Shown here piece by piece: positions 27,412-64,000 of a stretch of 64,000 bases of DNA. The position numbers were made by a program, and so were the translations under genes. Origin of the DNA: Bradyrhizobium amphicarpaeae (GTDB lineage Bacteria; Pseudomonadota; Alphaproteobacteria; Rhizobiales; Xanthobacteraceae); assembly GCF_002266435.3 (NCBI RefSeq), contig NZ_CP029426.2:806001-870000 (forward strand), in the 5' to 3' direction. The notes beneath the pieces are model-generated. The model saw nothing but the letters and a program-made list of their open reading frames with translations, searched no databases and was not told where the DNA came from. Position 1 is the stretch's first letter, and every line of letters begins with the position of its first letter.

Positions 27412-27777
27412 GTGAGTGATTTCGACCAGATGGGAATTGTCGTCGATTGGGTGGACGCCTGCCGGAAGGGCGACCTTAGGACGTTGCTCGACCTCTATGC
27501 GGACGACGCCCAGGTCGAATGCACCTGCAACGGCGCGCAGAGTTATCGCGGCCGCAGCGAGCTCGAGGCCTATTGGGGCCCGCGGCTCACCGCATTCTCC
27601 TCGGCGGGCTTCGGCCTTGAGGAGATCAATCCCGTGCCGAACGGCGTTGATCTCGAATATTCCGTCGCGGGCTCACTGCGCATTCACGCCTCGTTTCGCT
27701 TCAGTGCGGAAGGCAAGATCGACAGAACTCTGTGCGAGCCGGCGCGACAGAACGCGCACAAGGGCTGCGTGTGTTAG
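27412..27777 (+). CDS. NTF2/SnoaL-like domain protein
   Basis: A 121-residue protein from a GTG start: MGIVVDWVDACRKGDLRTLL, then LYADDAQVECTCNGAQSYRG, SELEAYWGPRL and IHASFRFSAEGKIDRT. This is the ketosteroid-isomerase-like cone fold. Five cysteines, four of them in two short motifs (ECTC and CVC at the very end), are unusual for the fold and might bind metal or form disulfides. Its last codons overlap by 4 nt the 3' end of the convergent histidine kinase. No pathway can be assigned. Confidence 0.75.
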   Translation: MSDFDQMGIVVDWVDACRKGDLRTLLDLYADDAQVECTCNGAQSYRGRSELEAYWGPRLTAFSSAGFGLEEINPVPNGVDLEYSVAGSLRIHASFRFSAEGKIDRTLCEPARQNAHKGCVC

Positions 27778-29135
27778 GGCAGGGCTGATGGGTCGTGCGC
27801 ATCTCCGATGGGCAGGCGGCAGCGCACATAGGTTCGTCCGTCCGCGCGCAGCAGTGACAGCGATCCGCTGAGCGCGCGTGCGCGCTCGTGCATGCCGGTC
27901 AGGCCGCGGCCGAAGACGTTGTCGGCGGGAAAGCCGCCGCCGTCGTCGGAGATCTCGATCGCGAGCATATCACCGGTGACGGCCGCCTTCACATCCACGC
28001 TGCTCGCTTCGGCATGGCGCAATACGTTGGTCAGCGCCTCCTGGATCACGCGATAGACCGTTTGCGCGAGCGGCCCGTCGACGCCATTGAGGTCGGAACC
28101 GATCGTGTCCGTCAGGACGATATGCGGTGCCTGCTTGCGAAAGTTCTGGAGCAGCGTCTGCACGCTGGTCTCCAGCCCCAGATCCTCGATGTAGAGCGGC
28201 CGCAGCCGGTCGAGGATGCGGCGGTTGGTCTGCTGGAGCGCTTCGACCGATTGCAGCATCTGCTCGGCCGGATTGCCGAGATTTCCCGCCTGCGGTGCGG
28301 CGTCGACCAGTGCGATCGTACTGGCGCGGATGCTGAACAGCAGCGGCCCGAGCTCGTCGTGCAATTCGCGGGCGAGATCGCGCCGCTCGTCGTCCTGCAG
28401 CGACACCAGGCGGTGCATCAGATTGCGATTGTCCTGGCTGAGTTGCGCCAGCGTTGCCGCCAAGGCATTTGCTTCCTCACAGCTTTGCCGGATTTCGGGC
28501 GGTCCTCCCACCGGGATCGGAGTTGCGTAATCGCCGCGCCGGATGCGGGTGAGCCCGCTGCCGAGATGTTGCAACGGCCGCAAGGCCGAACCGGCGAAGA
28601 GATAGGCAATGGTACCGGTAAGCAGCATCAGCGCGGCGACGAGGCTGGCCAGCGCGAGGAAGCCGATCCACTTCTCGAACAGGTCGGCGGAGAGGTCCGG
28701 GAGGAACACGAGATTGCCTACATGCTTGCCGTCAATCACGACAGGCGAGGCACTATCCATGTCCGGTATGGTCAACAGGTTGACGAACCAGCCTGGAACC
28801 AATTTCAGGTTGCGAATGTCCTCCCTCGGGGAGGGCAACGGACCCTCTTCGACACGACGGAATTGAATATTGGAGGACGTGTCCAGCAACTGGACGAAGG
28901 CATCCAGCGTCTTCTGCGGATTGTCCGAGGCGCTCAGCGTGTTGTTGAGCGCGGCGGCGACGATCCCGGTGGAGCGTCGCGCCGGCTCGCTTTCATCGGC
29001 CAGCTGAATTGTTGCAAAAAGCTGCAACAATATACCGCCCAGGATCAGCGCGACGAGAAAGCTCGCGCCGAGCGGAAGAAACAGTTGCGTTCTGAACGAG
29101 AGTCGTTGCCACATTAGGTCAATTCTAACGCGCAT
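27774..29135 (-). CDS. NarL-type sensor histidine kinase
   Basis: A 453-residue membrane kinase: helix 1 at about 15-40, a periplasmic sensor of about 115 residues, helix 2 at about 156-182, a HAMP segment, then the HisKA_3 dimerisation box with phospho-acceptor His259 (DDERRDLARELHDELGPLLF) and an HATPase domain (VIQEALTNVLRHAEA N-box; ISDDGGGFP). The partner is almost certainly the LuxR-type regulator at 29201, which is divergent with starts 65 nt apart. The signal is unknown. A second ATG at 29114 (MWQRLSF) is possible. Confidence 0.9.
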   Translation of the reverse strand: MRVRIDLMWQRLSFRTQLFLPLGASFLVALILGGILLQLFATIQLADESEPARRSTGIVAAALNNTLSASDNPQKTLDAFVQLLDTSSNIQFRRVEEGPLPSPREDIRNLKLVPGWFVNLLTIPDMDSASPVVIDGKHVGNLVFLPDLSADLFEKWIGFLALASLVAALMLLTGTIAYLFAGSALRPLQHLGSGLTRIRRGDYATPIPVGGPPEIRQSCEEANALAATLAQLSQDNRNLMHRLVSLQDDERRDLARELHDELGPLLFSIRASTIALVDAAPQAGNLGNPAEQMLQSVEALQQTNRRILDRLRPLYIEDLGLETSVQTLLQNFRKQAPHIVLTDTIGSDLNGVDGPLAQTVYRVIQEALTNVLRHAEASSVDVKAAVTGDMLAIEISDDGGGFPADNVFGRGLTGMHERARALSGSLSLLRADGRTYVRCRLPIGDAHDPSALP

Positions 29136-40924: not shown

Positions 40925-41596
40925 ATGAACGCTCCCTCGACCCATCTCGTCATCGCCGATGACCATCCGCTTTTCCGGGACGCGCTGCGACAGGCGGTGG
41001 CCGGCGTCCTGACCACGGCCAGGATCGACGAAGCCGGGTCGTTCGAGGATCTGACCAAGCTCCTGGAACAGACCTCGGGTGTCGACCTGATCCTGCTCGA
41101 CCTCTCGATGCCCGGGATCTCGGGCTTTTCCGGCCTGATCTATCTGCGCGCGCAATATCCGGCGATCCCGGTGGTGATCGTCTCGGCGTCGGACGACAGC
41201 CCCACGATCCGCCGCTCCCTCGATTTCGGCGCCTCCGGCTTCATTCCGAAGCGTTTTGGCGTCGAGACCCTGCGCGATGCCATCCTCAAGGTGATGGAGG
41301 GCGACGTCTGGGTTCCCGCCGATACCGATCTGTCGGCGGCGGCCGATCCCGACATGACGCGCCTGCGCGACCGCCTGGTGACTCTGACGCCGCAGCAGGT
41401 CCGCGTGCTGATGATGCTGTCGGAAGGGTTGCTCAACAAGCAGATCGCTTACGAGCTCGGCGTCTCCGAGGCCACCATCAAGGCGCATGTCTCGGCCATC
41501 CTGCAAAAGCTCGGCGTCGAGAGCCGGACGCAGGCGGTTATCGCCGCAGCGAAGATCGCCGGCGGGCAGTGGAAGCAGGGCACGCCGGCGGGGTGA
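40925..41596 (+). CDS. Orphan LuxR-type response regulator
   Basis: A 223-residue regulator with a receiver domain (HLVIADDHPLFRDALRQAVA; phospho-acceptor Asp59 in VDLILLDLSMPGISGFSGL; GASGFIPKRFG with the conserved Lys) and a C-terminal LuxR helix-turn-helix (LTPQQVRVLMMLSEGLLNKQ, ELGVSEATIKAHVSAILQKL). No kinase is adjacent. The symporter-fused hybrid kinase at 47605 belongs to a class that in other bacteria signals to LuxR-type regulators of this kind, so it is a candidate partner by inference. It is divergent from the MHS transporter. Confidence 0.9.
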   Translation: MNAPSTHLVIADDHPLFRDALRQAVAGVLTTARIDEAGSFEDLTKLLEQTSGVDLILLDLSMPGISGFSGLIYLRAQYPAIPVVIVSASDDSPTIRRSLDFGASGFIPKRFGVETLRDAILKVMEGDVWVPADTDLSAAADPDMTRLRDRLVTLTPQQVRVLMMLSEGLLNKQIAYELGVSEATIKAHVSAILQKLGVESRTQAVIAAAKIAGGQWKQGTPAG

Positions 41597-41601
41597 GGCT
41601 G

Positions 41602-44442
41602 CTACAGCGTCCTCAGGAGCGCATCCGCGGCCCCGATATCTTCAGTCTCGGAACCTGCAGCGAAACCGTCGCGCGCCGATTGGAGCAATAGCCTTGCGTC
41701 CTGATGACGACGCCGGACGACAAGAAGCTGCGCCAGATCGGTTGCCGCACGCAACTCCCACGCTTTCGCCCCCTTCGTGCGGCTGAGGTCCAACGCCTGC
41801 ATCAGGCAGGCCTCGGCCTTGTCGATCCGCGGTACCAACTGGTGCGACAGGACCTTGCCCTTCATGCGCAGCAGTTCGGGCATGTAGAGGTGATCGCCAC
41901 TTCGCGCGACGAGGCGGATCGCGTCGTCGATCAGGCCTGCGCTCTGCTCGATCCGACCGAGTACCAACAGGCCTTGGACCAGCGCGATGTTGAACGTCGT
42001 GGTGAGCAGCTCGTAGCCCGCATCGTGGAGTTCGCGCAGGCAGGCCCTGATCGTCTCGACGCCATCGGTCGCATTTCCGCGTCGGATCGCGATCTCGCCT
42101 TTGACGCCGCGACCGACCGCGAGATAGGGACCCATCGAACGCGAATTGGCATGCGCGATGAAACGGTCGATGTTCGTTTCGGCGCCGTCGAGGTCGCCAT
42201 TCCACAGATCGATCGAGACCGCCCAGATCAGCGCGATGCAGAGTGTGATCGGATGATCCATCTGCGCGGCTTCGTCGATGGTCTGACGCGCCAGCCGCTG
42301 TGCATCCGCGGGCCGGCCCTGGAGCCAGAGTTCGCGCGCGAGCGAGATGCCGGCGCGATTGCGATGATCGAAGCCGTGGACCGTGCTGATCCGTTCTGTG
42401 CCCGGCCCCCGCCAGGCAGTCTCCAGCATGGCCATCGCTTCGCGATGCTCGCCGGCCAGATGCAAGGACACGCCCAGCAGCGAATGAGCGAGGGCGATCG
42501 AGTCGGCATCGCCGAGCGTTTGGGCGACCGCGAGACTTTGCTGGGCGTAACCGAGCGCGGCGTCGAACTGTCCCATCCGCTCGTGAAAGATATGCATGCG
42601 GCCGAGCAACTGGAGCTGGTTCGGCGCATCGCCGCGCGCCTCGGCGAGCGCAAGGGCCCTGCGCAACGCAGCATGCGCCGCCTCGCTGCCGCCGCGGGTG
42701 AACATCAAGGTCAGCCCGAGCGCAGCCTGGATGTGCATCTCCTCGGCGCTGCCGCGCGAGGACGGATCTATCGCAAGCAAGCTCCGTTCCGACCAGCGGC
42801 GGCATTCGGTCAGCAGCGACATCGCAAGGAAGATCGGTGCCGCAGCGGCGGCAAGCGCGATGCCGGCAACGATGTCGCCGCTTGCGCCGAAGCACCAGTC
42901 GAGCGCCGCCCGAACATTGTGAAGCGCGGAGAAGTGGACCGCGCGCTCGTCGGCGCTCGGCAGCGTCGCCCATGTCGTGCCGGCCTGTTCCAGCCACTGT
43001 CGGTAATAGGTCGCGTGGCGGGCGGAGAGTGCGGCGTCGAAAGGATCGATCTCGAGCAGATAGGCGCGCGTGGTGTCGAGCAGGCGGTAGCGCATCATGG
43101 CGCCGATCGGGCGCGGCGCAACCATCGACTTGGCGACGAGACCGTCGATGGCGTCGAACAGGCGGGAGCGGTCGACGCGGTCGTCCGGCACCACCTCGAG
43201 GGCGGCGTCGATGGTGAAGTGACCGGCAAAAACCGCGAGCCGGCGCAGCACGAGCCGCTCGGTGTCGGACAGGAGGCTGTAGCTCCAGTCCAGCGTCGCG
43301 TGCAGCGTCTTCTGCCGCGGCGGCGCGGTGCGTTGGCCCTGCCAGACCAGATTGAGGCGTTCGTCGAGCAGCGCCGCCGTCTGCTCCAGGCCGTAGGCTT
43401 CGACCCGGCCGGCGGCGAGCTCGATTGCCAGCGCCATTCCGTCGAGCTTGCGGCAGATGTTCGCGATGATCGCAGCATTTGCATCGTCGAGTAAGATCTG
43501 CGCGCCGCCGGCCGTCGCACGTTCGAGGAACAATTGCAATGCTGGATAGGTCTGGGCCGACGCGGCTGTCATCCCGGCATCGTCGGGCGGAACGGCAAGT
43601 GGCGCCAGCCGATACACCTGTTCGCCCTCGACGCGCAGAGACTCGCGGCTCGTGGCGAGGATGTGGACATGCGGTGCGCCGTGAAAGATCTCCGCCGCCA
43701 ACGGTGCCGCTGCGCCGATGACGTGCTCGCAATTGTCCAGAATGAGCAGCATCCGTTTGTCCCGGAGATGCGCAAGCAATGCGGGGAGAGGATCGTCGGT
43801 CTGCGCCGGCAGGCCCAGCATCAGCAGAATCGAGGTGATCACGAGATCGGGATCGCTGAGCGCGGCAAGATCAACGAAATGCGCGGCGTCGCAGAATGTT
43901 TCGAGGAGGTCGTGAGCGATCGCCACCGCGACGGCGGTCTTGCCGACGCCGCCGGGGCCTGCGATTGTGACGAAACGGGAGGCGATAAGCCTGTCCGAGA
44001 TGGCGGCGATTGCTTCCTCGCGCCCGACCATCCGGAGCAGACGGTTGGGGAGTTTTACGGGTGGCGGATCCAGGTTTGGCGTCGCGCGCGGCTCTGCGCG
44101 AATCTCCGTTTGCTCAATCGGTGCGACGAAACAATAGCCTCGGCCCGAGAGCGTGGTGATGTAGCGGGCGCCGTCCTTGCCGTCGCCGAGCGCCTTGCGC
44201 AGTGCGGCGACGTGGAAGCGCAAATTGGCTTCATCAACGGTGATGCCGGGCCACACCAGTGCCATCAGATCCCATTTGCTGACGACTGCGTTCGGCCGCG
44301 ACATCAGCGCGATCAGCGTGTCGAAGGCTTTTGCGCCGAGCGGCAGCGCAACGCCATTGCGCGCAACGAGCCGCTCATGTGGCGTTACGGTGAACGGCCC
44401 GAACGATAAAGTTCCCGTCGCGGTACTGGCCGGCTCGGTCAT
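41602..44442 (-). CDS. Winged-helix STAND (NB-ARC) regulator with TPR-like C-terminus
   Basis: A 946-residue regulator. Residues about 10-108 form an OmpR/PhoB-type winged helix (LSFGPFTVTPHERLVARNGV; LMALVWPGITVDEANLRFHV; YITTLSGRGYCFVAP). A STAND ATPase follows, with the P-loop GPGGVGKTAV at 162-171, a Walker-B-like strand MLLILDNCEH at 231-240 and the LATSRESLRVEGEQVYRL sensor region. From about 480 to the end the protein is helical repeats of TPR type. STAND proteins oligomerise on ligand and ATP binding. It is divergent from the ohr-led operon at 44640, its likely target. The ligand is unknown. Confidence 0.88.
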   Translation of the reverse strand: MTEPASTATGTLSFGPFTVTPHERLVARNGVALPLGAKAFDTLIALMSRPNAVVSKWDLMALVWPGITVDEANLRFHVAALRKALGDGKDGARYITTLSGRGYCFVAPIEQTEIRAEPRATPNLDPPPVKLPNRLLRMVGREEAIAAISDRLIASRFVTIAGPGGVGKTAVAVAIAHDLLETFCDAAHFVDLAALSDPDLVITSILLMLGLPAQTDDPLPALLAHLRDKRMLLILDNCEHVIGAAAPLAAEIFHGAPHVHILATSRESLRVEGEQVYRLAPLAVPPDDAGMTAASAQTYPALQLFLERATAGGAQILLDDANAAIIANICRKLDGMALAIELAAGRVEAYGLEQTAALLDERLNLVWQGQRTAPPRQKTLHATLDWSYSLLSDTERLVLRRLAVFAGHFTIDAALEVVPDDRVDRSRLFDAIDGLVAKSMVAPRPIGAMMRYRLLDTTRAYLLEIDPFDAALSARHATYYRQWLEQAGTTWATLPSADERAVHFSALHNVRAALDWCFGASGDIVAGIALAAAAAPIFLAMSLLTECRRWSERSLLAIDPSSRGSAEEMHIQAALGLTLMFTRGGSEAAHAALRRALALAEARGDAPNQLQLLGRMHIFHERMGQFDAALGYAQQSLAVAQTLGDADSIALAHSLLGVSLHLAGEHREAMAMLETAWRGPGTERISTVHGFDHRNRAGISLARELWLQGRPADAQRLARQTIDEAAQMDHPITLCIALIWAVSIDLWNGDLDGAETNIDRFIAHANSRSMGPYLAVGRGVKGEIAIRRGNATDGVETIRACLRELHDAGYELLTTTFNIALVQGLLVLGRIEQSAGLIDDAIRLVARSGDHLYMPELLRMKGKVLSHQLVPRIDKAEACLMQALDLSRTKGAKAWELRAATDLAQLLVVRRRHQDARLLLQSARDGFAAGSETEDIGAADALLRTL

Positions 44443-54689: not shown

Positions 54690-56840
54690 TTACGCCGCCC
54701 GCATGTTGTTGAGGAACGCGTCGATTTCTCCGCGCAGCATGTCGGCTTCGCGCCGGAGCGCGTCGGAGGCGCTCAGCACTTCGTTTGCCGCGGCACCGGC
54801 TTCGGCGGAGGCGGTGGAGACGCCGACGATGTTGCTGGAGACCTCGCTGGTGCCGCCGGCCGCGTGCTGGATGTTGCGGGCGATCTCGCGGGTCGCCGCG
54901 CCCTGCTCCTCGACCGCGGCCGCAATCGTCGTGGTCACGTCGTCGATCTCGCCGATGATCCGGCCGATGCCCTGGATGGCGCCGACCGCCGACGTCGTGA
55001 TGTCCTGCATGCTGGCGATCTGGGTGCGGATCTCCTCCGTCGCCTTGGCGGTCTGGCTCGCGAGGCTCTTCACCTCGGAGGCGACCACCGCGAAGCCGCG
55101 GCCGGCCTCGCCCGCACGCGCCGCCTCGATGGTGGCGTTGAGCGCGAGCAGGTTGGTCTGCGAGGCGATGGTCTGGATCAGGTCGACCACGACGCTGATG
55201 CGGCTCGCGCTGTCGGCGAGGCCCTGCACCGTGGCGTCGGTCGCGCCGGCCTCGTCGACCGCCTTCTTGGCGATCGCGGCCGAGGTCACGACCTGCTTGC
55301 TGATCTCCTCGATCGAGGACGACAATTGCTCGGTCCCCGATGACACGGTCTGCACGTTGACCGAGGTCTCCTCGGCGGCGGAGGCGACTGCGTTGACCAG
55401 CGCGTTGGACTGATCGGCGGTGGTCGACATGCTCTGCGCGGTCGACTGCATCGAATTGGCCGACTGCGCCAGATTGTCGAGCGCCGAGCGCACCGTGTTT
55501 TCGAATTCGGCGATCTTGGCTTCCATGCGCGCGGCCCGCTCCGCCTTGGCGATCCGGTCCTTGTCCTGATCGGCGGCGAGCGCCCGGGCTTCGATCATGC
55601 TGTCGCGGAACACGGTCAGCGTGTCGTTCATCGCGCCGATCTCGTCATTGTTCTTGGCGCGCGCGATCTCGGTCTCGAGGTCGCCGGCCGAGAGCAACTG
55701 CATGGCGCGTTGCAGGCCGGTGATCCGGCGCAGGATGTTTCGGCCGACATAGAGCCAGACGAACAGCGCCGAGCCGACCAGCATCAAGGCCCCCAGCGCC
55801 AGCATCACGGTCGTCGCCAGCGAGGTCTCCTGCTGCGCCTGGGAGGTCGAGGCGTTGGTCTCCTTCTGCACGCCGTCGACGAGTTGCTGCACGCTGATGC
55901 CGAGGCCGACATTGAGCTTGCGGGTCTCGTCAAGGATGGTCTGGCCGTAGTCGACGGAGTCGAGCTCCTTCTCACGCAGATTGAACACGCCGGTCTTGCC
56001 GGTGCCGAGCGCGAGCAGCTTCTCCGCCGTCTCGCGCAGCATCTTGTTGCCCTGGTTGTCGGGCAGCAGATCGAGGTTGGAGCGCAGGCGGCCCTGGGCC
56101 GTCTTGAATCCCTTCTGGATGTCGTCGAGCTTGTCGCTGGTGTTGGCCGACAGCGCCGCACTCATGTCGGCGGCGGCGAGATTGCCGCTGGCGACGACGT
56201 TGCCGAGCTGGCCGACGGTCTGTGCGGCGTCGCTGGCATCCGCGGCGGACAGGTCGGCCGAGCCGAGAATGGCATTGACCCGGGTCTGGGCGTCCAGCAT
56301 GGCCGGGCTGGCCGCGCCGACGAAGGCGCCTTGCGCGTTGCGCAGCGCGTCATATTGCTTGTCGTGAAGGGCGGCAATGTCCAGCCGTTCGCGGGCGGCC
56401 TTGGCCAGGCTCTGGGCCGCCTCGTTGATGCTCTTCATCGTTTCGCTGAGGCCGGCGACGACGGTCTTGTCACCGCCGAGCTGGATGATCTCGGTCAGCT
56501 TCTGCTGGGTCTGCTCCTGCAATTCCTTGAGCTTCTTGGTGCGCTCGTTCAGGGCTTCCTCGTTTTGCGCCGCGAGCAGGGCCGGTCCTTGTGCCGCAAG
56601 GCTCGCACTCAATGCCGACAATTGCAGGCTGGCGGCTAGGCGCGGAATGTCCCGTCCGCTCAGTTCGGTCATCCGTCCGCCGAGATTCTGCAGCGCCAGG
56701 CCGGCGCCGGCCGCGATCACGAGGCCCATGCCCGCGACCACCGCAAAGGCCGCGAACAGGCTGCCACGCACGCCCCAGGCCGGCAGTTTGAAGCGAGGCA
56801 GAAAACGGCCCAAGCGGCCAAGCCCCAGACGGATCGCCAT
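54690..56840 (-). CDS. Methyl-accepting chemotaxis protein
   Basis: A 716-residue chemoreceptor. Helix 1 (about 25-50) and helix 2 (about 341-367, [21 protein letters not shown]) enclose a periplasmic helical sensor of about 290 residues, longer than the four-helix bundle of Tsr. A HAMP domain follows ([20 protein letters not shown]), then the signalling domain with the hairpin tip [20 protein letters not shown] at about 560-580. No C-terminal CheR-tethering pentapeptide is present; it ends [10 protein letters not shown]. The start at 56840 has GGGGGAA upstream. The ligand is unknown. Confidence 0.93.
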
Positions 56841-56944
56841 CGAAATTCCCCCAACATCTTGCTTCTGGTTGTGGCCGGCAGTATCCGCACCGCGGGTTAA
56901 AAATTCGCAATCTCCGCAAACGGTTGCGCCAGTTCCGCAGAGCG

Positions 56945-56974
56945 AAAAAAGGGCCGGCGAAAATCGCCGGCCCC
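56945..56974 (-). terminator. Rho-independent terminator of the outer-membrane protein gene
   Basis: On the minus strand a 10-bp stem (GGGCCGGCGA / TCGCCGGCCC, loop of three) is followed by a run of six Ts. It lies about 27 nt after the stop of the barrel gene and before the chemoreceptor start. Confidence 0.85.
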
Positions 56975-57000
56975 CTGTCATGGTAAGCTTGTGGTAACTA

Positions 57001-57723
57001 TCAGTAGCGCGCGACGGCCGGGCTTGCCCAGTTGAAGCGGTAGTTGACGCCCGCCTTGATGGTGTGGTCGTCGGTGGTGAAGCTGCCGGTGCCCGCGAGC
57101 GGACCGCCGGTGAAGCTCGCGTCACCGAAATTGTAGTACTGGTACTCGGCCTTGGCCGACCAGTTCGGGGCGAACATGTATTCGAGGCCGGCGCCGACGG
57201 TGTAGCCGTTGCGATGATCGCCGGTGATGACGAAGGCGGCCGGCACGCCGCCGACGGTCACCTTCTCGTTGTTGTCCGAATAGGCGTAGCCGCCCTTCAC
57301 ATAGACCAGGCCGGGGCCCCAGGTGTAGCCGACGCGGCCGGTGATCGAGCCGAGGCCACGCTGGTCGTTGGTGTAGACGCCGCCCGGAAACACGGCGCCG
57401 ACGCTGCCGGAGAGCCAGGAATACTGGCCTTCGACGCCGACCACGAAATTCGGGTGGAACTGCCAGTCGGCACCGACCTGCACGCCGCCGAGGAAACGGC
57501 CGTTGCCGTTGTTGCCGGTGGAGAGGCCGCTGAAATTGTTGTCGCTGGAGAACGCGCCGCCGACATGGCCGCCGATGTAGAAGCCGGTCCAGTTGTAGAT
57601 CGGCGCGGCATAGGCCGGCGCGGGCGACTTGTAATAGTTGCGGTTGCCGAGATCGGCGCCGACGGCCGGCGCAGCCGCGCCCACCACGAGCAGCGCAACG
57701 GTCGCAAACAAAATCTTCTTCAT
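57001..57723 (-). CDS. Outer-membrane beta-barrel protein (Omp31/RopB type)
   Basis: A 240-residue small porin-like barrel. The signal peptide [20 protein letters not shown] ends near VGADLG; the mature part begins [20 protein letters not shown], with alternating strands such as [63 protein letters not shown], and the last strand [12 protein letters not shown]. In rhizobia and Brucella these proteins are abundant envelope components. The ATG at 57723 was chosen for its signal peptide; the frame extends to 57825 without a plausible start. Confidence 0.92.
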
Positions 57724-57948
57724 CGTCTTGAACTCCGACACTTTAAGGTCCCCGGCAGGCGCGCTTTCCGCGCCGCATTGGTTTTGCAGATAGCTCCCTT
57801 TTGACGAAAATGCTGTCACATGCATGGCACAGCGGCACCCAACCTAACTTATTGGGCTGCAAATGATTTTCGTGCTTAATGCCGACTTAAGAAGCGGTGA
57901 AGGAAGGCTTAACTCCACGGCGCTTCGGTAACCTGCGAGCGTCCTTCG

Positions 57949-58269
57949 TTAACCAAGACGCCGTCGCGCCTCATCCCGCATCTGCTCGCGGAACGCCGCG
58001 CGCTTGGCGGGGCGGTCCTCCTCGCGCACGTCATGGCGATCGAAGATGTCGAACTTCTCCAGGATGGGATAGCGCTCGCTGGCCATCGCAAGCACGCGAA
58101 GCAGCTTCGTGGCCTCCGGCAAAGGACCGCTCACCTCCCAGCGCCGGATGGTGTCGCCGCCGCCCTTCTCCGGCAATCCGCAGAGCTTTGCCATGTCGGC
58201 CGCCGTGAGCTTCCGCTCGAGGGCATCGGAGAGGTCGGCGCGGAGTTGCTTCAGTTCGGGCCCGGTCAT
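57949..58269 (-). CDS. Small helix-turn-helix protein
   Basis: A 106-residue protein. The first 60 residues look like an XRE-style HTH (ELKQLRADLSDALERKLTAA, DMAKLCGLPEKGGGDTIRRWE, then SGPLPEATKLLRVLAMASER), with IRRWEVSGP corresponding to the usual recognition-helix end. The C-terminus is charged (FDRHDVREEDRPAKRAAFRE). The ATG at 58269 follows GAGG at a suitable distance; the frame is open upstream to 58380. It is divergent from the pair of tiny exported proteins and could regulate them, by context only. Confidence 0.7.
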   Translation of the reverse strand: MTGPELKQLRADLSDALERKLTAADMAKLCGLPEKGGGDTIRRWEVSGPLPEATKLLRVLAMASERYPILEKFDIFDRHDVREEDRPAKRAAFREQMRDEARRRLG

Positions 58270-58466
58270 GTCGCCTCGATACGCGAAGTCGATGAGGCAA
58301 TGCCCTAGCGCTGATTCGGGTCCATCCGAAGGCGGGTATGGATCCGTCCGAAGTGGTGGTGACGCCCGTTGCTTCGGCACAATCGCCTGCGCACGAAGTT
58401 ATGAACTCGTACCTATGGACATAGTCCGATCCATGAACACATGGCACAGCGACCGAGGGATCAACC

Positions 58467-58751
58467 ATGACAAGCATCAAACTTGCGATCGCCGCGCTCG
58501 TCACAACCGGGCTGCTTGCCGCGCCCTTCTCGGCTGAAGCGAAGAAGGCGCGGTCGAGCCGACATTACAGCACGAGCGTGGTGGCCCCGACCTATAGCGG
58601 TGCCGGCGCGCCCGCGGCGCAGCCGAGGGCGTCTTACGGCTCGTCCGGACAGACGGTCGGAACGGTCACGGCGCCCTCGGTCGGATCGTATAATTGGCCC
58701 TCGGTCGGCGTGACCAATGCGGTTCCGACCTGGAGCAACACGACGCGGTAG
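58467..58751 (+). CDS. Tiny exported protein, first of a related pair
   Basis: A 94-residue protein with a signal peptide (SIKLAIAALVTTGLLAAPFS, cleavage near AEAK) and a low-complexity mature part (RHYSTSVVAPTYSGAGAPAA) that ends in the motif YGSSGQTVGTVTAPSVGSYN followed by WPSVGVTNAVPTW. The same motif closes the next gene, so the two are paralogues. No function is known to me. A GAGGGATC site precedes the ATG. Confidence 0.75.
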   Translation: MTSIKLAIAALVTTGLLAAPFSAEAKKARSSRHYSTSVVAPTYSGAGAPAAQPRASYGSSGQTVGTVTAPSVGSYNWPSVGVTNAVPTWSNTTR

Positions 58752-58859
58752 GGGCGCCGATCGTCTTCCGTCCGCTCCGCCTCGCCAGACCCATGAGGCA
58801 CAATTTCGTCCACCACGCGTTGTTCGATGACCGATGCACTACATCCGAAAGGATCCTTC

Positions 58860-59132
58860 ATGACGAGAACGAGAATCTTGCTTGCCACGCTCGCTGCAGC
58901 CGGAGCTATGGCCCTGTCAGTCCCCGCCGGTGCGCAAACCTCCACGACGGGCGCCCAGAGCAACACCACCGGGACCCCAGGAGTGCCTTCGGCGCAGACC
59001 GCGCCCTACGGCAGCTCGGGACAGACCGTCGGAACGGTCACGGCTCCATCGGTGGGAAGCTACAATCGGCCTTCCGTCGGCGTGACCAATTCGGCCCCCA
59101 CGTGGGGCAACACCAATCCTTCCGCGAAATAG
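58860..59132 (+). CDS. Tiny exported protein, second of a related pair
   Basis: A 90-residue protein: signal peptide TRILLATLAAAGAMALSVPA (cleavage near GAQTS), a Ser/Thr/Gly-rich linker, and a C-terminal motif that matches the preceding gene (YGSSGQTVGTVTAPSVGSYN, RPSVGVTNSAPTW). Nucleotide identity in the motif is high, including GGAACGGTCACGGC, while the N-terminal halves differ, so either recent duplication or selection on the C-terminus is indicated. AAAGGATCC precedes the ATG at 58860. Confidence 0.75.
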   Translation: MTRTRILLATLAAAGAMALSVPAGAQTSTTGAQSNTTGTPGVPSAQTAPYGSSGQTVGTVTAPSVGSYNRPSVGVTNSAPTWGNTNPSAK

Positions 59133-59157
59133 GATCTCGCCGACGAGGGCTCAGTCG

Positions 59158-59456
59158 GCCGGCGCGCGCTCTTTCCGTCCACCGCCGCCAGCAGCTCGCG
59201 CGTATAGTGATGCTCGGGCGCTGCGAACAGTTGCGCGGTCGGCTTCAGCTCGACGACGGCGCCGCGCTGCATCACCGCGATGCGGTCGCATATCTGGGCG
59301 GCGACGCGCAAATCGTGGGTGATGAACAGCATCGAGAGGCCGAGTCGCGCCTTGAGGTCTTCGAGCAGCCGCAAGACCTGCGCCTGCACGGAGACGTCGA
59401 GGGCGGAGACCGCTTCGTCCGCGACGATGATCTCGGGCTCGAGCGCGAGCGCGCGC
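59158..59456 (-). pseudogene. Truncated 3' copy of the ABC ATPase gene
   Basis: These 299 bp are a near-identical direct repeat of 60832-61134, the 3' end of the intact ABC ATPase gene. It encodes about 100 residues (ALALEPEIIVADEAVSALDV, SVQAQVLRLLEDLKARLGLS, MLFITHDLRVAAQICDRIAV) but lacks the P-loop and the SGGQ signature. A 4-bp indel near the 3' end changes its last residues. The match ends abruptly at about 59456 within a GCGC run. It cannot encode a working ATPase. Confidence 0.85.
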
Positions 59457-59681
59457 ACCCTGCCTTGCATCCCGCTCGTCGGGCATCCTGGCGTAGCGCA
59501 TGCTACGCCGCCACGACGTCTTGCGCAGAACCTCTTCAAGCCCGTGCACGAAGCAACTGTCGGAGCGCGCGAACAGGGGCTTCGCCCGCGCTCCGTCAAG
59601 AATGCGTCGCGCCTCTTGCAATCCCTCATTGTTGTGAGCTACCGTCTAAGCCTTTGCGGGTATTTTTTGAGAGATTTTTGC
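59457..59681. other. Junction DNA between the truncated ATPase copy and the foreign-looking gene
   Basis: No gene is recognised. A perfect hairpin GGCGTAGC-GCAT-GCTACGCC lies at about 59492-59511, close to the repeat boundary, and the last 50 nt before 59682 are T-rich. A minus-strand frame here encodes Arg/Cys-rich residues continuing into the truncated ATPase and has no family resemblance I can identify. Confidence 0.45.
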
Positions 59682-60758
59682 ATGTGGCGATTATTGGCCG
59701 CTTTGATTCTCGGGATTCAGGTCAGTTCGGTTTCGGCACAATTGCTTCCGCTGCCCATACCCGGTCCGCCGGCAACTACCGCAGAACCAACGCCTCAGGA
59801 AGTTGAAGCGAGCGCAAATGAGTTGAGCAAGCAACCAGTGCCCGATAAGGACGCCCTGCTCTTACGAGAATTAGATCGGTTGGATGCCGAAATTTCCCGC
59901 GCGACCCAGCAGTTCCAAAGAGCCAACAGTTTCAAAAATCAGCAGTCTGTCATGGCGGCCGCGGGCGACCGTCTTATGGCGCAGGCCAAGGTGTTGTCTC
60001 AGTTCGATTGCGCCAACAACATCGCCAAATTTCCTCAGGCTTTGAACTCTTACTTCCGTGCATTCGGTGAACTGACTACCGTCGCCGCCAGCAGTTCGTT
60101 GGGCAATCTCGACTTCACGCCTTTCTTTTTTCAGAACGATCCCAATCCCGCCACGTCATGCGCTGAGGCGAAGACGAAGTTCGGGTCATCCGACTATCTT
60201 GAGGCGCAAGCTCAGGTGCTTTCAGGAACCCAAAAGGCTCTGGCCGATTTCGTCGCGGCCCAGACAAACCTCGCTAACGCGGAAACAAGGTACCTGGAGG
60301 CTTTGAAGAAGCGAAGGGCTTCGGTTCAGGACAAGCTGAACGCTTCGCAGCCGGCGGCTCAGATTGGCAGCAATTTATGGCTTCTCCTCCTGATATTGGC
60401 GATCGCATGCGTCGCGACAATTCTCGGAATCAAATTGTTCGAGCCCGAGCTCCAGATGGAATGGGTAGCCTCGGGTCAGGTCATCCAGTTTGTGACTGTG
60501 ATGATCCTGCTCAGTGTGATCCTGGCGCTCGGTTTGTCCGGAAAGCTGCTAGAGAACACTCTGGGAACGCTTCTTGGCGGGATTGCGGGCTACGTCCTTG
60601 CGCAGGGCGTTGGCCGGTCAGCAGCAAGGAATGTTGCCAACGCTGCGGCTGCAGCAAGTGTACCCGCGCCGCCAGCACCTCCATCACCGGCGCCGGCGGC
60701 AGCGCGCGTGCCTCCTGCACCGCCAGCACCTCTCCCGCCTGCACCCGCGGCTCCGTGA
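59682..60758 (+). CDS. Unrecognised membrane protein with proline-rich tail
   Basis: A 358-residue protein of no family I recognise. It has a signal peptide (MWRLLAALILGIQVSSVSAQ), a helical, Gln/Ala-rich periplasmic region (about 40-225; LLRELDRLDAEISRATQQFQ, then TNLANAETRYLEALKKRRAS as coiled coil), three hydrophobic segments (about 229-253, 267-290 and 295-310) and a Pro/Ala tail (PAPPAPPSPAPAAARVPPAP). Its base composition is visibly less GC-rich than the neighbours and uses more A/T third positions. It lies between the two direct repeats of the ABC ATPase 3' end, suggesting acquisition. The ATG at 59682 gives a signal peptide; the frame is open upstream. Confidence 0.72.
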   Translation: MWRLLAALILGIQVSSVSAQLLPLPIPGPPATTAEPTPQEVEASANELSKQPVPDKDALLLRELDRLDAEISRATQQFQRANSFKNQQSVMAAAGDRLMAQAKVLSQFDCANNIAKFPQALNSYFRAFGELTTVAASSSLGNLDFTPFFFQNDPNPATSCAEAKTKFGSSDYLEAQAQVLSGTQKALADFVAAQTNLANAETRYLEALKKRRASVQDKLNASQPAAQIGSNLWLLLLILAIACVATILGIKLFEPELQMEWVASGQVIQFVTVMILLSVILALGLSGKLLENTLGTLLGGIAGYVLAQGVGRSAARNVANAAAAASVPAPPAPPSPAPAAARVPPAPPAPLPPAPAAP

Positions 60759-60823
60759 CGCCAAATCCCCGCAAGTAGAGCTAACATCTCGAGGGGCATT
60801 TGCTCGCGGCAGCTTGGTACTGC

Positions 60824-62443
60824 CTACACCGCCGGCGCGCGCTCTTTCCGTCCGGGCACCGCCGCCAGCAGCTCGCGCGTATAGGCATGCTCGGGCGCCG
60901 CGAACAGCTGTGCGGTCGGCTTCAACTCGACGACGGCGCCGCGCTGCATCACCGCGATGCGGTCGCAGATCTGGGCGGCGACGCGCAAATCGTGGGTGAT
61001 GAACAGCATCGAGAGGCCGAGTCGCGCCTTGAGGTCTTCGAGCAGCCGCAAGACCTGCGCCTGCACGGAGACGTCGAGGGCGGAGACGGCTTCGTCCGCG
61101 ACGATGATCTCGGGCTCGAGCGCGAGCGCGCGCGCAATGCCGATGCGCTGGCGCTGGCCGCCGGAGAATTCATGCGGATAGCGCTCGAGTGCGCCGGCAT
61201 CGAGGCCCACCATCTTGAGCAGATCGCGGGCGCGGTCGAACGCCGCCTTCGGATCAAGGCCGGCTGCGATCGGGCCGTCGGCAATGATGTGGCCGACCTT
61301 GCGGCGCGGATTGAGCGAGGCGAACGGGTCCTGGAAGATCATCTGGATGCGATGGCGCTCGGCGCGCAGCGCCTTGCCCGAGAGCGAGGTGAGTTCTGTA
61401 TCGCCGATCCACACCGTGCCGCGGTCGGCCTCGATCAGCCGCATCACCAGCCGCGCCACCGACGATTTGCCCGAGCCGGATTCGCCGACCAGGCCGAGCG
61501 TCTCGCCCTTGAGGATGTTGAAATTGACCGCGCGCGCGGCATCGACGCGGCGGTCCTCGCGGAACCAGCCGCCCGAGGTGACATAGGTCTTGTCGAGCCC
61601 GATCACCTCGACCGCCCTGGCCCTGTCGTCGAGCGGCGCGCGTGCCGGCGGGTCCATCGACGGCACGGCAGCGAGCAGCGCCTTGGTATAGTTGTGCTGC
61701 GGCGCGTTGAATACCGTTGCGGCCGGGCCTTCCTCGACCACCTTGCCGTGTCGGAGCACGACGACCTGGTCGGCGATGTCGGCGACGACACCGAAATCGT
61801 GGGTGATGAACATCACCGCCATGTTGCGATTGCGCTGCAGGTTGCGGATCAGCTTGAGGATCTGCGCCTGCGTGGTGACGTCGAGCGCGGTGGTGGGCTC
61901 GTCCGCGACCAGCACGGCCGGCTCGAGCGCGAGCGCCATCGCGATCATGGCGCGCTGGCGCTGGCCGCCGGAGAGCTGGTGCGGATAGGCGCGCACGATT
62001 CGTTCGGGGTCGGGCAGCCCGACCTCGCGCGCCAGCGACAGCGCCTTGGCGCGCCGTTCCCTCGGCGTCAGCAGGCCATGGGCCTCGAACATCTCCGCCA
62101 TCTGGTCGCCGATCCGCATCAACGGATTGAGCGCGGTCATCGGCTCCTGGAAGATCATCGCGAAACGGCGGCCGCGCAGATCGCGCCAGCCGTCGTCGTC
62201 GAGCTTGAGCAGGTCGCGTCCCTCGAACTGGATCTCGCCGGAGGCGACCGAGACCGTATCGGGCAACAGGCCCATCAGCGCATGCGCGCACATCGACTTG
62301 CCCGAACCGGACTCGCCGACGACGCAGACGATCTTGCCGGGCCGCAAGTCGAGCGAGACGCCATCGACGGCAAACGGACGCTCGGCGCCCTCAGGCAGCG
62401 CGATCCGCAAGTTCTTGATGGAGACGGCGGGCGGAGCGGTCAT
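60824..62443 (-). CDS. Peptide-type ABC importer ATPase with two nucleotide-binding domains
   Basis: A 539-residue double ATPase of the Dpp/Opp/YejF type. Domain 1 has the P-loop VGESGSGKSMCAHALMG (near residue 41), the signature LSGGQRQRAM and Walker B VLVADEPTTALD. Domain 2 repeats these: VGESGSGKSSVARLVM (near 320), FSGGQRQRIGIARA and IIVADEAVSALD. It powers uptake by the two permeases encoded just upstream; the gap to the first permease is 2 nt. The 3' end exists again as a truncated copy at 59158. The substrate, a peptide, nickel chelate or similar, is not resolvable without the binding protein. Confidence 0.93.
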   Translation of the reverse strand: MTAPPAVSIKNLRIALPEGAERPFAVDGVSLDLRPGKIVCVVGESGSGKSMCAHALMGLLPDTVSVASGEIQFEGRDLLKLDDDGWRDLRGRRFAMIFQEPMTALNPLMRIGDQMAEMFEAHGLLTPRERRAKALSLAREVGLPDPERIVRAYPHQLSGGQRQRAMIAMALALEPAVLVADEPTTALDVTTQAQILKLIRNLQRNRNMAVMFITHDFGVVADIADQVVVLRHGKVVEEGPAATVFNAPQHNYTKALLAAVPSMDPPARAPLDDRARAVEVIGLDKTYVTSGGWFREDRRVDAARAVNFNILKGETLGLVGESGSGKSSVARLVMRLIEADRGTVWIGDTELTSLSGKALRAERHRIQMIFQDPFASLNPRRKVGHIIADGPIAAGLDPKAAFDRARDLLKMVGLDAGALERYPHEFSGGQRQRIGIARALALEPEIIVADEAVSALDVSVQAQVLRLLEDLKARLGLSMLFITHDLRVAAQICDRIAVMQRGAVVELKPTAQLFAAPEHAYTRELLAAVPGRKERAPAV

Positions 62444-62445
62444 CG

Positions 62446-63285
62446 TCAGCGTCCCTCCCGCGACAGGCGCGGGTTGAGCGCGTCGTTGAGGCCTTCGCCG
62501 ATCAGGTTCAGCCCGAGCACCGAGATCAGGATGGCGACACCGGGAAACACCGTGATCCACCAGGCCTGGCGGATCACCGTGCGGCCGGCGCCGACCATGT
62601 AGCCCCAGGAGATCAGATTGGGATCGCCGAGGCCGAGGAACGACAGCGAGGATTCCAGCAGGATCGCGGTCGCCACCATCAGCGAGGCCAGCACGATCAC
62701 CGGCGACAGCGCGTTGGGCAGGATCTCGCGCATGATGATCCAGGCGTTGCTCTGGCCGGTGACGACAGCGGCCTGGACATATTCGCGCGTCCGCAGCGAC
62801 AGCACCTCGCCGCGCACGAGGCGGGCGACCGGCGGCCAGCTCACCAGCGCGATCGAGGTCACGATCGAATAGATCGAGGGCTGCAGGATCGCGACCAGCA
62901 CGATCGCGAGCGCGAAGCTCGGGATAGTCTGGAAGAACTCGGTGAAGCGCATCAGGGCGTCGTCGACCCTGCCGCCGAAATAGCCGGCCATGGCGCCGAT
63001 GGGAATGCCGACGATCAGCGCAACCAGCGTGGAGACCAGGCCGACGAGCAGCGAGACGCGCGCGCCAAAAATCATGCCGGCGAACACGTCGCGGCCGAGC
63101 GCGTCGGTGCCGAGCGGCACGGTCGAGAGCGTGAATGGCGGGAGGAACGGCCGCTGCACCATGCGCCAGGGCGAGTTCGGGAACAGCATCGGCCCGAACA
63201 GTGCAACCGAGATCGCGAGCAGCAGGATGATGAGCCCGATGACGCCGCTCGGACTCTTCAGCATCGATTTCCAGAACTGTTTCAT
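62446..63285 (-). CDS. ABC transporter permease, DppC/OppC type
   Basis: A 279-residue inner-membrane permease with an N-terminal OppC-N segment (KSPSGVIGLIILLLAISVAL), the PLGTDALGRDVFAGMIFGAR signature and five further helices. The ATPase-contacting EAA loop is EYVQAAVVTGQSNAWIIMREILPNAL. The start overlaps the stop of the first permease gene (ATGA), and the ATPase follows after 2 nt, so the three are one operon. Confidence 0.94.
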   Translation of the reverse strand: MKQFWKSMLKSPSGVIGLIILLLAISVALFGPMLFPNSPWRMVQRPFLPPFTLSTVPLGTDALGRDVFAGMIFGARVSLLVGLVSTLVALIVGIPIGAMAGYFGGRVDDALMRFTEFFQTIPSFALAIVLVAILQPSIYSIVTSIALVSWPPVARLVRGEVLSLRTREYVQAAVVTGQSNAWIIMREILPNALSPVIVLASLMVATAILLESSLSFLGLGDPNLISWGYMVGAGRTVIRQAWWITVFPGVAILISVLGLNLIGEGLNDALNPRLSREGR

Positions 63286-64000
63286 GAGGCGAATTCGATG
63301 CGCGGATCGACCAGGCGATAGACCAGATCGGTGATGAGGTTGAAGATCAGGACCATGGCCGAGCAGATCACGAAGACGCCGAGCAGCAGATTATAGTCGC
63401 GCTGCAACAGCGCGTCGTACATCAGGCGCCCGATGCCGGGCCAGGCGAACACGGTCTCGGTGATGACGGCGCCGCCGATCAGCGTTCCCGAATGCACGCC
63501 GGCCAGCGTCACGACGGGCAGCAGCGCGTTGCGCAGCACGTGGCGGCGCTGGATCACGGCGTCGGAAAGGCCCTTCGCGCGCGCGGTCTTGACGAAGTCG
63601 AGCCGCTTCACCTCCAGCATCGAGGCGCGCGTCATGCGGGTATAGGTCGCCATGAAGAACAGGCCGAGCGTCATCGCCGGCATGATCAGGTGTTTTCCGA
63701 CGTCGACCGCGTGGGCAAGGCCGGTCAGATTGGCGCCGACCGTCTCGTAACCGAAACTCGGCAGCCAATCCATGGTGACCGAGAACAGCAGGATGCCCAT
63801 CAACGCCACCCAGAACAGCGGCATGGCGTAGAAGATCAGTGCGAACACGGTGATGGCGGTGTCGAGGAAGGTTCCGGCAAAGCGCGCGGCGAAGGTGCCG
63901 AACATAACGCCGAGCACGAGCGAGATCGCAAATGCCGTCAGCGTCAACAGCAACGTCGCCGGCAGCCGCTCGCCGATCAGCTTGGCGACCGGCGCCTGCT
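63282..64000 (-). CDS. ABC transporter permease, DppB/OppB type, truncated by the window edge
   Basis: About 239 residues are visible and the frame stays open to base 64000 (reading QAPVAKLIGERLPATLLLTL inward), so the N-terminal helix lies outside. Family blocks are FVKTARAKGLSDAVIQRRHV (EAA loop), NALLPVVTLAGVHSGTLIGG, VFAWPGIGRLMYDALLQRDY and ITDLVYRLVDPRI. It pairs with the OppC-type permease downstream. The periplasmic binding protein gene is probably just outside the window. Confidence 0.93.
   Translation of the reverse strand, partial: QAPVAKLIGERLPATLLLTLTAFAISLVLGVMFGTFAARFAGTFLDTAITVFALIFYAMPLFWVALMGILLFSVTMDWLPSFGYETVGANLTGLAHAVDVGKHLIMPAMTLGLFFMATYTRMTRASMLEVKRLDFVKTARAKGLSDAVIQRRHVLRNALLPVVTLAGVHSGTLIGGAVITETVFAWPGIGRLMYDALLQRDYNLLLGVFVICSAMVLIFNLITDLVYRLVDPRIEFAS

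Follow-up and report, generated by a model that had tools for sequence, protein, structure and literature searches.

The locus described here lies within a 64,000-nucleotide stretch of the Bradyrhizobium amphicarpaeae genome (the window; positions 806001–870000 of the single-contig, 7.03-Mb genome designated G000) and is a real, well-preserved scar of the acquisition of a single gene by recombination. The acquired gene, designated X (59682–60758, plus strand), stands between two copies of the 3' end of an ABC transporter ATPase gene, one belonging to the intact gene (R) and the other displaced from it (L). An empty site in a relative, the insertion, the duplication, a native gene end on L and a differing end on R were all directly apparent.

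The direct repeat that the initial annotation placed at 59158–59456 and 60832–61134 was borne out. Repeat-finding returned a pair at 59156–59455 and 60833–61132 (300 nt, 94% ungapped identity, spacing of 1677), and gapped alignment of L (59158–59456, minus strand) with R (60832–61134, minus strand) gave approximately 94% identity in direct orientation, with 4 bp missing from L. Since the genome-wide runner-up to this stretch, presumably a paralogous ATPase gene, was much weaker (80% over 213 bp, with the best 40 of 175 first-look candidates scored), L and R represent the same gene end in duplicate. The ATPase gene is intact on one side, as had been claimed (60824–62443, minus strand; ABC_tran matched twice, together with oligo_HPY), and the displaced 3' fragment on the other is a start-less piece of that gene, frameshifted by the 4-bp loss. 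L covers just the end of the gene, downstream of what we take to be the ATPase signature motif. The 1.37-kb interval between L and R, which is mostly of lower GC and contains X as its one intact gene (358 codons), is completed by 225 bp on the left (59457–59681) without a long match elsewhere and by 65 bp of non-coding DNA on the right (60759–60823), between X and the present ATPase stop. The joint of the left part to the ATPase fragment falls at approximately 59456–59463. No tRNA was found within the 64-kb window.

Comparison with relatives, which had been proposed as a check, revealed an empty site in the closest sampled relative, G163 (95.5% identical over 55001–58344 and 95.9% over 60831–64000). 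Thus, 58400–59464 mapped to 841940–843004 and 60831–61699 to 842694–843562 of that genome, the two matches overlapping in a single copy of the gene end without X. One copy of the gene end was also present in nine of the nine relatives for which the locus was fetched, and the junction without X between the ATPase end and the gene adjoining it (gene 2, 58827–59132, plus strand; a small exported protein of the native flank) is common to G163, G159 and G179. A search with X protein matched 2 of the 195 genus genomes, namely G000 itself and, weakly, G081; the latter match is an artefact in which the X tail aligned to a proline/alanine-rich segment of another protein. DNA from 59457–60826 gave short matches in 23 of the 194 other genus genomes, every listed one within the part that codes for the proline-rich tail. 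The left part (59457–59681) matched none of these 194 genomes and none of the plasmids searched; among 295 other family genomes, three gave matches of 36–48 bases. Within the G000 genome, X and 59450–59690 were each found just once. All genome sets were samples (195 genus, 397 order, 398 phylum and 295 other family genomes), and searches scored the best first-look candidates per genome (10 for X protein in the genus, five in the order and phylum, and two for DNA searches, i.e., mapping of the G163 flanks and searches for the insert in the genus and family).

The start of X was placed at the ATG at 59682 because family members begin at about the same position, the frame being open upstream to 59280, inside L. 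The lower GC content claimed for the gene was evident from comparison with 40 proxy genes of the window (0.577 versus a mean of 0.651 and a minimum of 0.581), and the proposed check of codon adaptation to the window gave 0.372, below all 40 proxy genes (minimum 0.428); GC3 was 0.620, which is not the lowest (mean 0.835, minimum 0.608), and these comparisons are biased by the mechanical choice of proxy genes with a score that favoured high GC3. The empty site in G163, the 194 other genus genomes without X apart from the artefact and the lowest codon adaptation of the set support the conclusion that the interval between L and R is an insertion of foreign DNA.

The two copies of the gene end differ in their agreement with relatives. 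The last eight bases of L (59151–59158), which include the ATPase stop codon and last bases on the displaced copy (59151–59157, minus strand), agree with G163 at 8/8 positions, and those of R (60824–60831, minus strand) at 3/8. R keeps a stop codon (TAG) at the position homologous to the stop of relatives, which, across a panel of 69 relatives chosen as best matches from the 194 other genomes searched, is TGA in 61, TAA in six and TAG in one (G146), with one missed by the fixed offset. The R bases at 60827 and 60830, although different from those of G163, are the commonest in the panel (47/69 and 52/69, respectively), whereas the base at 60828 occurs in none of the 69. A stop at the homologous codon would be rare by chance in random DNA (about 3 in 64), which argues that the insert brought its own ATPase end. 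Judged from these bases, the end of L is native and that of R probably donor-borne. Decay of L is apparent from the 4-bp deletion of positions that all 69 relatives retain, and from a base opposite 60968 of R that is present in 0/69. Given this loss and the private substitutions of L, recombination between the repeats could leave a hybrid gene end, so the clean excision of 1.67 kb that had been anticipated was not upheld.

Single-crossover integration of a circularised linear donor fragment stands at about an even chance of being the route by which X was gained. A foreign chromosomal fragment in which X adjoined the 3' end of an ATPase orthologue would have entered the cell, where trimming and joining of its ends (at approximately 59456/59457) would have closed it into a small circle, and RecA would have promoted one crossover between this circle and the resident ATPase gene within their common stretch of approximately 300 bp. 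The product would contain, in order, the native end displaced as the decaying L, then X, retained as an intact gene, and finally the resident ATPase gene, now terminated by the last codons of the donor (R). The donor, the circularisation and the crossover are the parts of this mechanism that we infer. The genome encodes three Ku genes, which would make end joining of a linear fragment plausible.

A precedent is available from E. coli that received DNA cleavable in the cell. In that study, a PCR product diagnostic of partial lacZ duplication was obtained from 56 of 60 selected clones, 14 sequenced clones carried partial-gene duplications of 109–950 bp, which the authors ascribed to a single crossover with a circular molecule short of part of the homology, and the remaining four clones were products of true homology-facilitated illegitimate recombination with deletions, the usual outcome of that process (PMC3240628). 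A 300-bp duplication with no native sequence deleted agrees with the single-crossover class of that report. The present locus and the E. coli integrants are alike in that foreign DNA is framed by a direct partial-gene duplication, with 300 bp inside the range quoted above, but the present event was natural, took place in another bacterium and without a selection marker, and the displaced copy has since decayed (PMC3240628). This type of event is already known and is ordinary. Among the papers listed by a thin literature search, none mentions Bradyrhizobium.

Several results weigh against the single crossover. The genus, order and phylum samples yielded no donor in which X adjoins this ATPase gene; the end of R, on account of the base at 60828, matches no sampled donor; and the precedent concerns a plasmid in E. 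coli rather than a rhizobium (PMC3240628). Furthermore, a single crossover predicts even divergence along the repeat, whereas the differences between L and R number six over 105 outer sites, two over 193 inner sites and five over the eight end bases. The chance of such unevenness, given the variability of the panel, was 0.064 without the gene end and 0.0035 with it, and simple Fisher tests gave 0.025 and 0.00046, respectively (the latter for outer sites plus end, 11/113, versus inner sites, 2/193), all of these values being too small by an unknown amount since the split at 60940 was picked after the differences had been seen. Relatives likewise vary more in the outer part of the gene end (mean pairwise 0.124 versus 0.093 for the inner part), which weakens the test. 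Taken as it stands, uneven divergence would mean either that the inner parts were later homogenised or that L is wholly native, as expected of a one-sided event.

The main rival to single crossover is accordingly such a one-sided event (i.e., homology-facilitated illegitimate recombination or interchromatid joining), in which a linear donor recombines homologously within the ATPase gene on the right while its other end is joined illegitimately within the ATPase copy of the sister chromosome, leaving L wholly native and R of donor origin only in its outer 110 bp or so. This course of events is unlikely, though it deserves serious consideration, as it accounts for the near-agreement of the inner sites against the divergence of the outer sites and end, a test that is itself weakened by the greater outer variability noted above. 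A similar process has been proposed for displaced effector genes in type VI secretion system (T6SS) arrays of Vibrio, and duplications by alternative sister-chromosome pairing, there of approximately 100–900 kb, have been described in pneumococcal transformation (PMC5361080 and PMC3784515, respectively). The Vibrio arrays resemble the present locus in that a conserved stretch acts as the anchor beside which a foreign gene is gained; here, unlike there, the anchor is a transporter gene, the outcome is duplication rather than replacement or deletion, and there is no evident effector or immunity gene (PMC5361080). Against a one-sided event, the E. coli report indicates that deletion and not duplication is generally left by such events (PMC3240628). 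The single crossover that the initial annotation had suggested stands as the best-supported mechanism but is not proven over one-sided joining. Capture by end joining at a staggered break, with nicks 300 bp apart filled in and foreign DNA ligated between the two copies by Ku and ligase, would be favoured by the three Ku genes, and stress-inducible end joining in bacteria is reportedly linked to the acquisition of heterologous DNA. Such capture is nevertheless improbable, as it predicts random insert DNA at the end of R, where a stop was observed at the homologous codon and where 60827 and 60830 carry the commonest bases of the panel, though 60828 does not match any member.

The geometry of an intact gene on one side and a displaced native end on the other is also what would be left if a site-specific or transposing element had targeted the ATPase gene at its 3' end and restored that end, a possibility raised at the outset that gained no positive support beyond this geometry and is very improbable. 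Two matches to the phage integrase family PF00589 were found genome-wide, at 401 and 658 kb, and none in or next to the insert, the nearer being approximately 207 kb away, in line with the statement of the initial annotation that no integrase is visible; serine recombinases, transposases and other recombinase families were not searched for. The lack of a second copy of X or of 59450–59690 in the genome likewise argues against a restoring element, as does the location of X homologues elsewhere in six other genomes without framing repeats as far as their loci reach. The 300-bp shared block exceeds usual attachment cores. In addition, the ends of the insert showed no inverted repeats of at least 20 nt, and the 300-bp duplication is not a short one, so neither an insertion sequence nor a transposon is indicated. 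That X is ancient and was lost from all relatives is barely credible; logic alone allows it, and it is opposed by the 194 other genus genomes without X apart from one artefactual match, by the order sample, in which one of 397 genomes (G000) has X at full length and six more gave short partial matches, by the poor codon adaptation of X and by the X-less junction of gene 2 with the ATPase gene in G163, G159 and G179.

Homologues of X are thinly scattered. The seven matching genomes of the order sample were G000, with the full-length gene, and the six with short or partial matches, and in the phylum sample 4 of 398 genomes matched, namely G000, the distant relatives G1054 and G1164, and G970. 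A scan of genome contigs with the X-family alignment, in which two peptide patterns were used, gave at least six loci, while the same contigs scanned with X alone gave none. In five of six loci the GC content of the homologous frame was lower than that of its locus by at least 0.05, the values for the sixth (L061) being about equal (0.63 versus 0.638). The neighbours of the homologues, judged by open reading frames, differ among the six loci, and no framing repeat was found in any of them, two (L060 and L062) ending near the gene. X was absent by tblastn at E 1e-5 from the plasmids and from the phages searched, and the family was absent from viral contigs searched with two peptide patterns. 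A 300-nt repeat near the homologue in L059, from a Sphingomonas metagenome-assembled genome, was rejected as coincidence, its translations being those of a chemoreceptor-like pair that does not frame the homologue; the tandem genes (L059:7480–9491) share 643 nt at 92% identity. More distant relatives at L074:1453–2337 and L075:853–1953 have a helical part and a C-terminal membrane hairpin with a glycine-rich motif of similar form, G-x-(S/A)GY, which may point to a broader superfamily.

X encodes a protein of 358 amino acids with a signal-peptide-like helix, a helical domain, a membrane module and a proline-rich tail. An AlphaFold2 model (mean pLDDT 84, pTM 0.61) consists of an N-terminal helix, which may be a signal peptide, a helical bundle at approximately 38–222 and helices at 232–251, 266–285 and, a long one, 291–325, read as membrane helices. 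On this model and on the conservation of the family, X is most likely an inner-membrane protein with a predicted periplasmic sensing or scaffold domain. In the structure search that had been suggested, Foldseek comparison of the X model with the PDB and with models of viral proteins returned no match at E 0.001. VIA rows for the model were mostly helical bundles (chemoreceptor ligand domains, flagellins and receptors), and a sequence search of the PDB with X gave a best E of 0.085.

At least 288 relatives of X were found at E 0.001 (best 7992 candidates scored). The best 120 of these are mostly on short contigs, and those with names are mostly called hypothetical, a few bearing different automatic names. 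Among the relatives listed, named isolates include Rhizobium strains at 36–37% identity to X, and the closest of the matches listed were P0002 (68%) and P0003 (72%). Invariant in 55 aligned members (of the best 120) are C110 and C160 and, toward the C-terminus, W261, G265, Q266, Q269, F270, G295–G300, G303–L306 and Q308–G311, the C-terminal module being nearly unchanged across records named Rhizobium, Lysobacter, Nitrospira and Pyrinomonadaceae. A search with residues 228–322 alone returned 333 proteins at E 0.01, and the best 120 of these were largely of the same family, some with IPT/TIG domains. No Pfam family was matched by X at cut-off, the best weak matches being DUF4126 and DUF5693 (E 0.08–0.1). 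The Bestrophin-like family PF14023 matched the helix and membrane part of 14 of the 55 members at E ≤0.1, and is precomputed in the database annotation of P0079 and P0100; however, the four members with scores seen fell below the curated cut-off (best 28.8 versus 32 bits) and X itself was unmatched at E 0.1. X was unmatched at E 0.1 among the anti-phage defence models of PADLOC and was unmatched in NCBIfam; in these two sets the 55 members gave 18 weak families (no more than three members each) and 48 weak families (best 1e-8), respectively. The X family is sporadic and uncharacterised, the literature not having been searched for it. It is doubtful, though conceivable, that it represents an undescribed family of lone accessory genes that cross phyla singly through passive DNA capture and homologous joining rather than on a mobile element and that are kept for cell protection or envelope sensing. 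An equally speculative part of this idea is that the family would combine a periplasmic helical sensor with a disulphide, a hyper-conserved three-helix membrane module and a variable tail or IPT/TIG domain.

The left flank of the insertion is less similar to G163 than are its surroundings. Thus, identity over 58344–59464 is 84–85% (84.7% over the adjacent 1.1 kb), compared with near 96% on either side, with dips to 70–85% around gene 2 (58344–59157). Of 195 genomes, G163 (78%) and G159 (75%) gave the top-scoring matches to gene 2; shorter pieces elsewhere reached 84%. Import of this flank is disfavoured, given that G163 and G159 still hold the best matches to gene 2 and that other low-identity tracts occur in the window; gene 2 seems to be fast-evolving rather than donor DNA, or else was exchanged. 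Other stretches of 250 bases with identities of approximately 67–83% to G163 were noted at 41500–44000, 27500–28800 and about 15400, and are possible recombination tracts. Gene 2 and gene 1 (58467–58751) encode small exported paralogues that are 78% identical over 120 nt. Between gene 1 and the ATPase gene, G179, G005, G067, G011 and G002 have an additional gene, presumably for a permease-like protein, that G000, G163 and G159 lack, a difference that reads as a local deletion.

The locus is a natural footprint of the gain of a single gene without an evident mobile element, in which the empty site, the native remnant, the changed gene end and the unusual codons can all still be read. The event is ordinary; the captured gene is full-length, and the membrane-protein family to which it belongs, sporadic, uncharacterised and not searched for in print, is mildly interesting and merits a functional test. 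Screening for scars of this kind, in which an odd gene lies next to a partial 3' end of a housekeeping gene, could measure the frequency of gene gain in bacteria through plain recombination and end joining.

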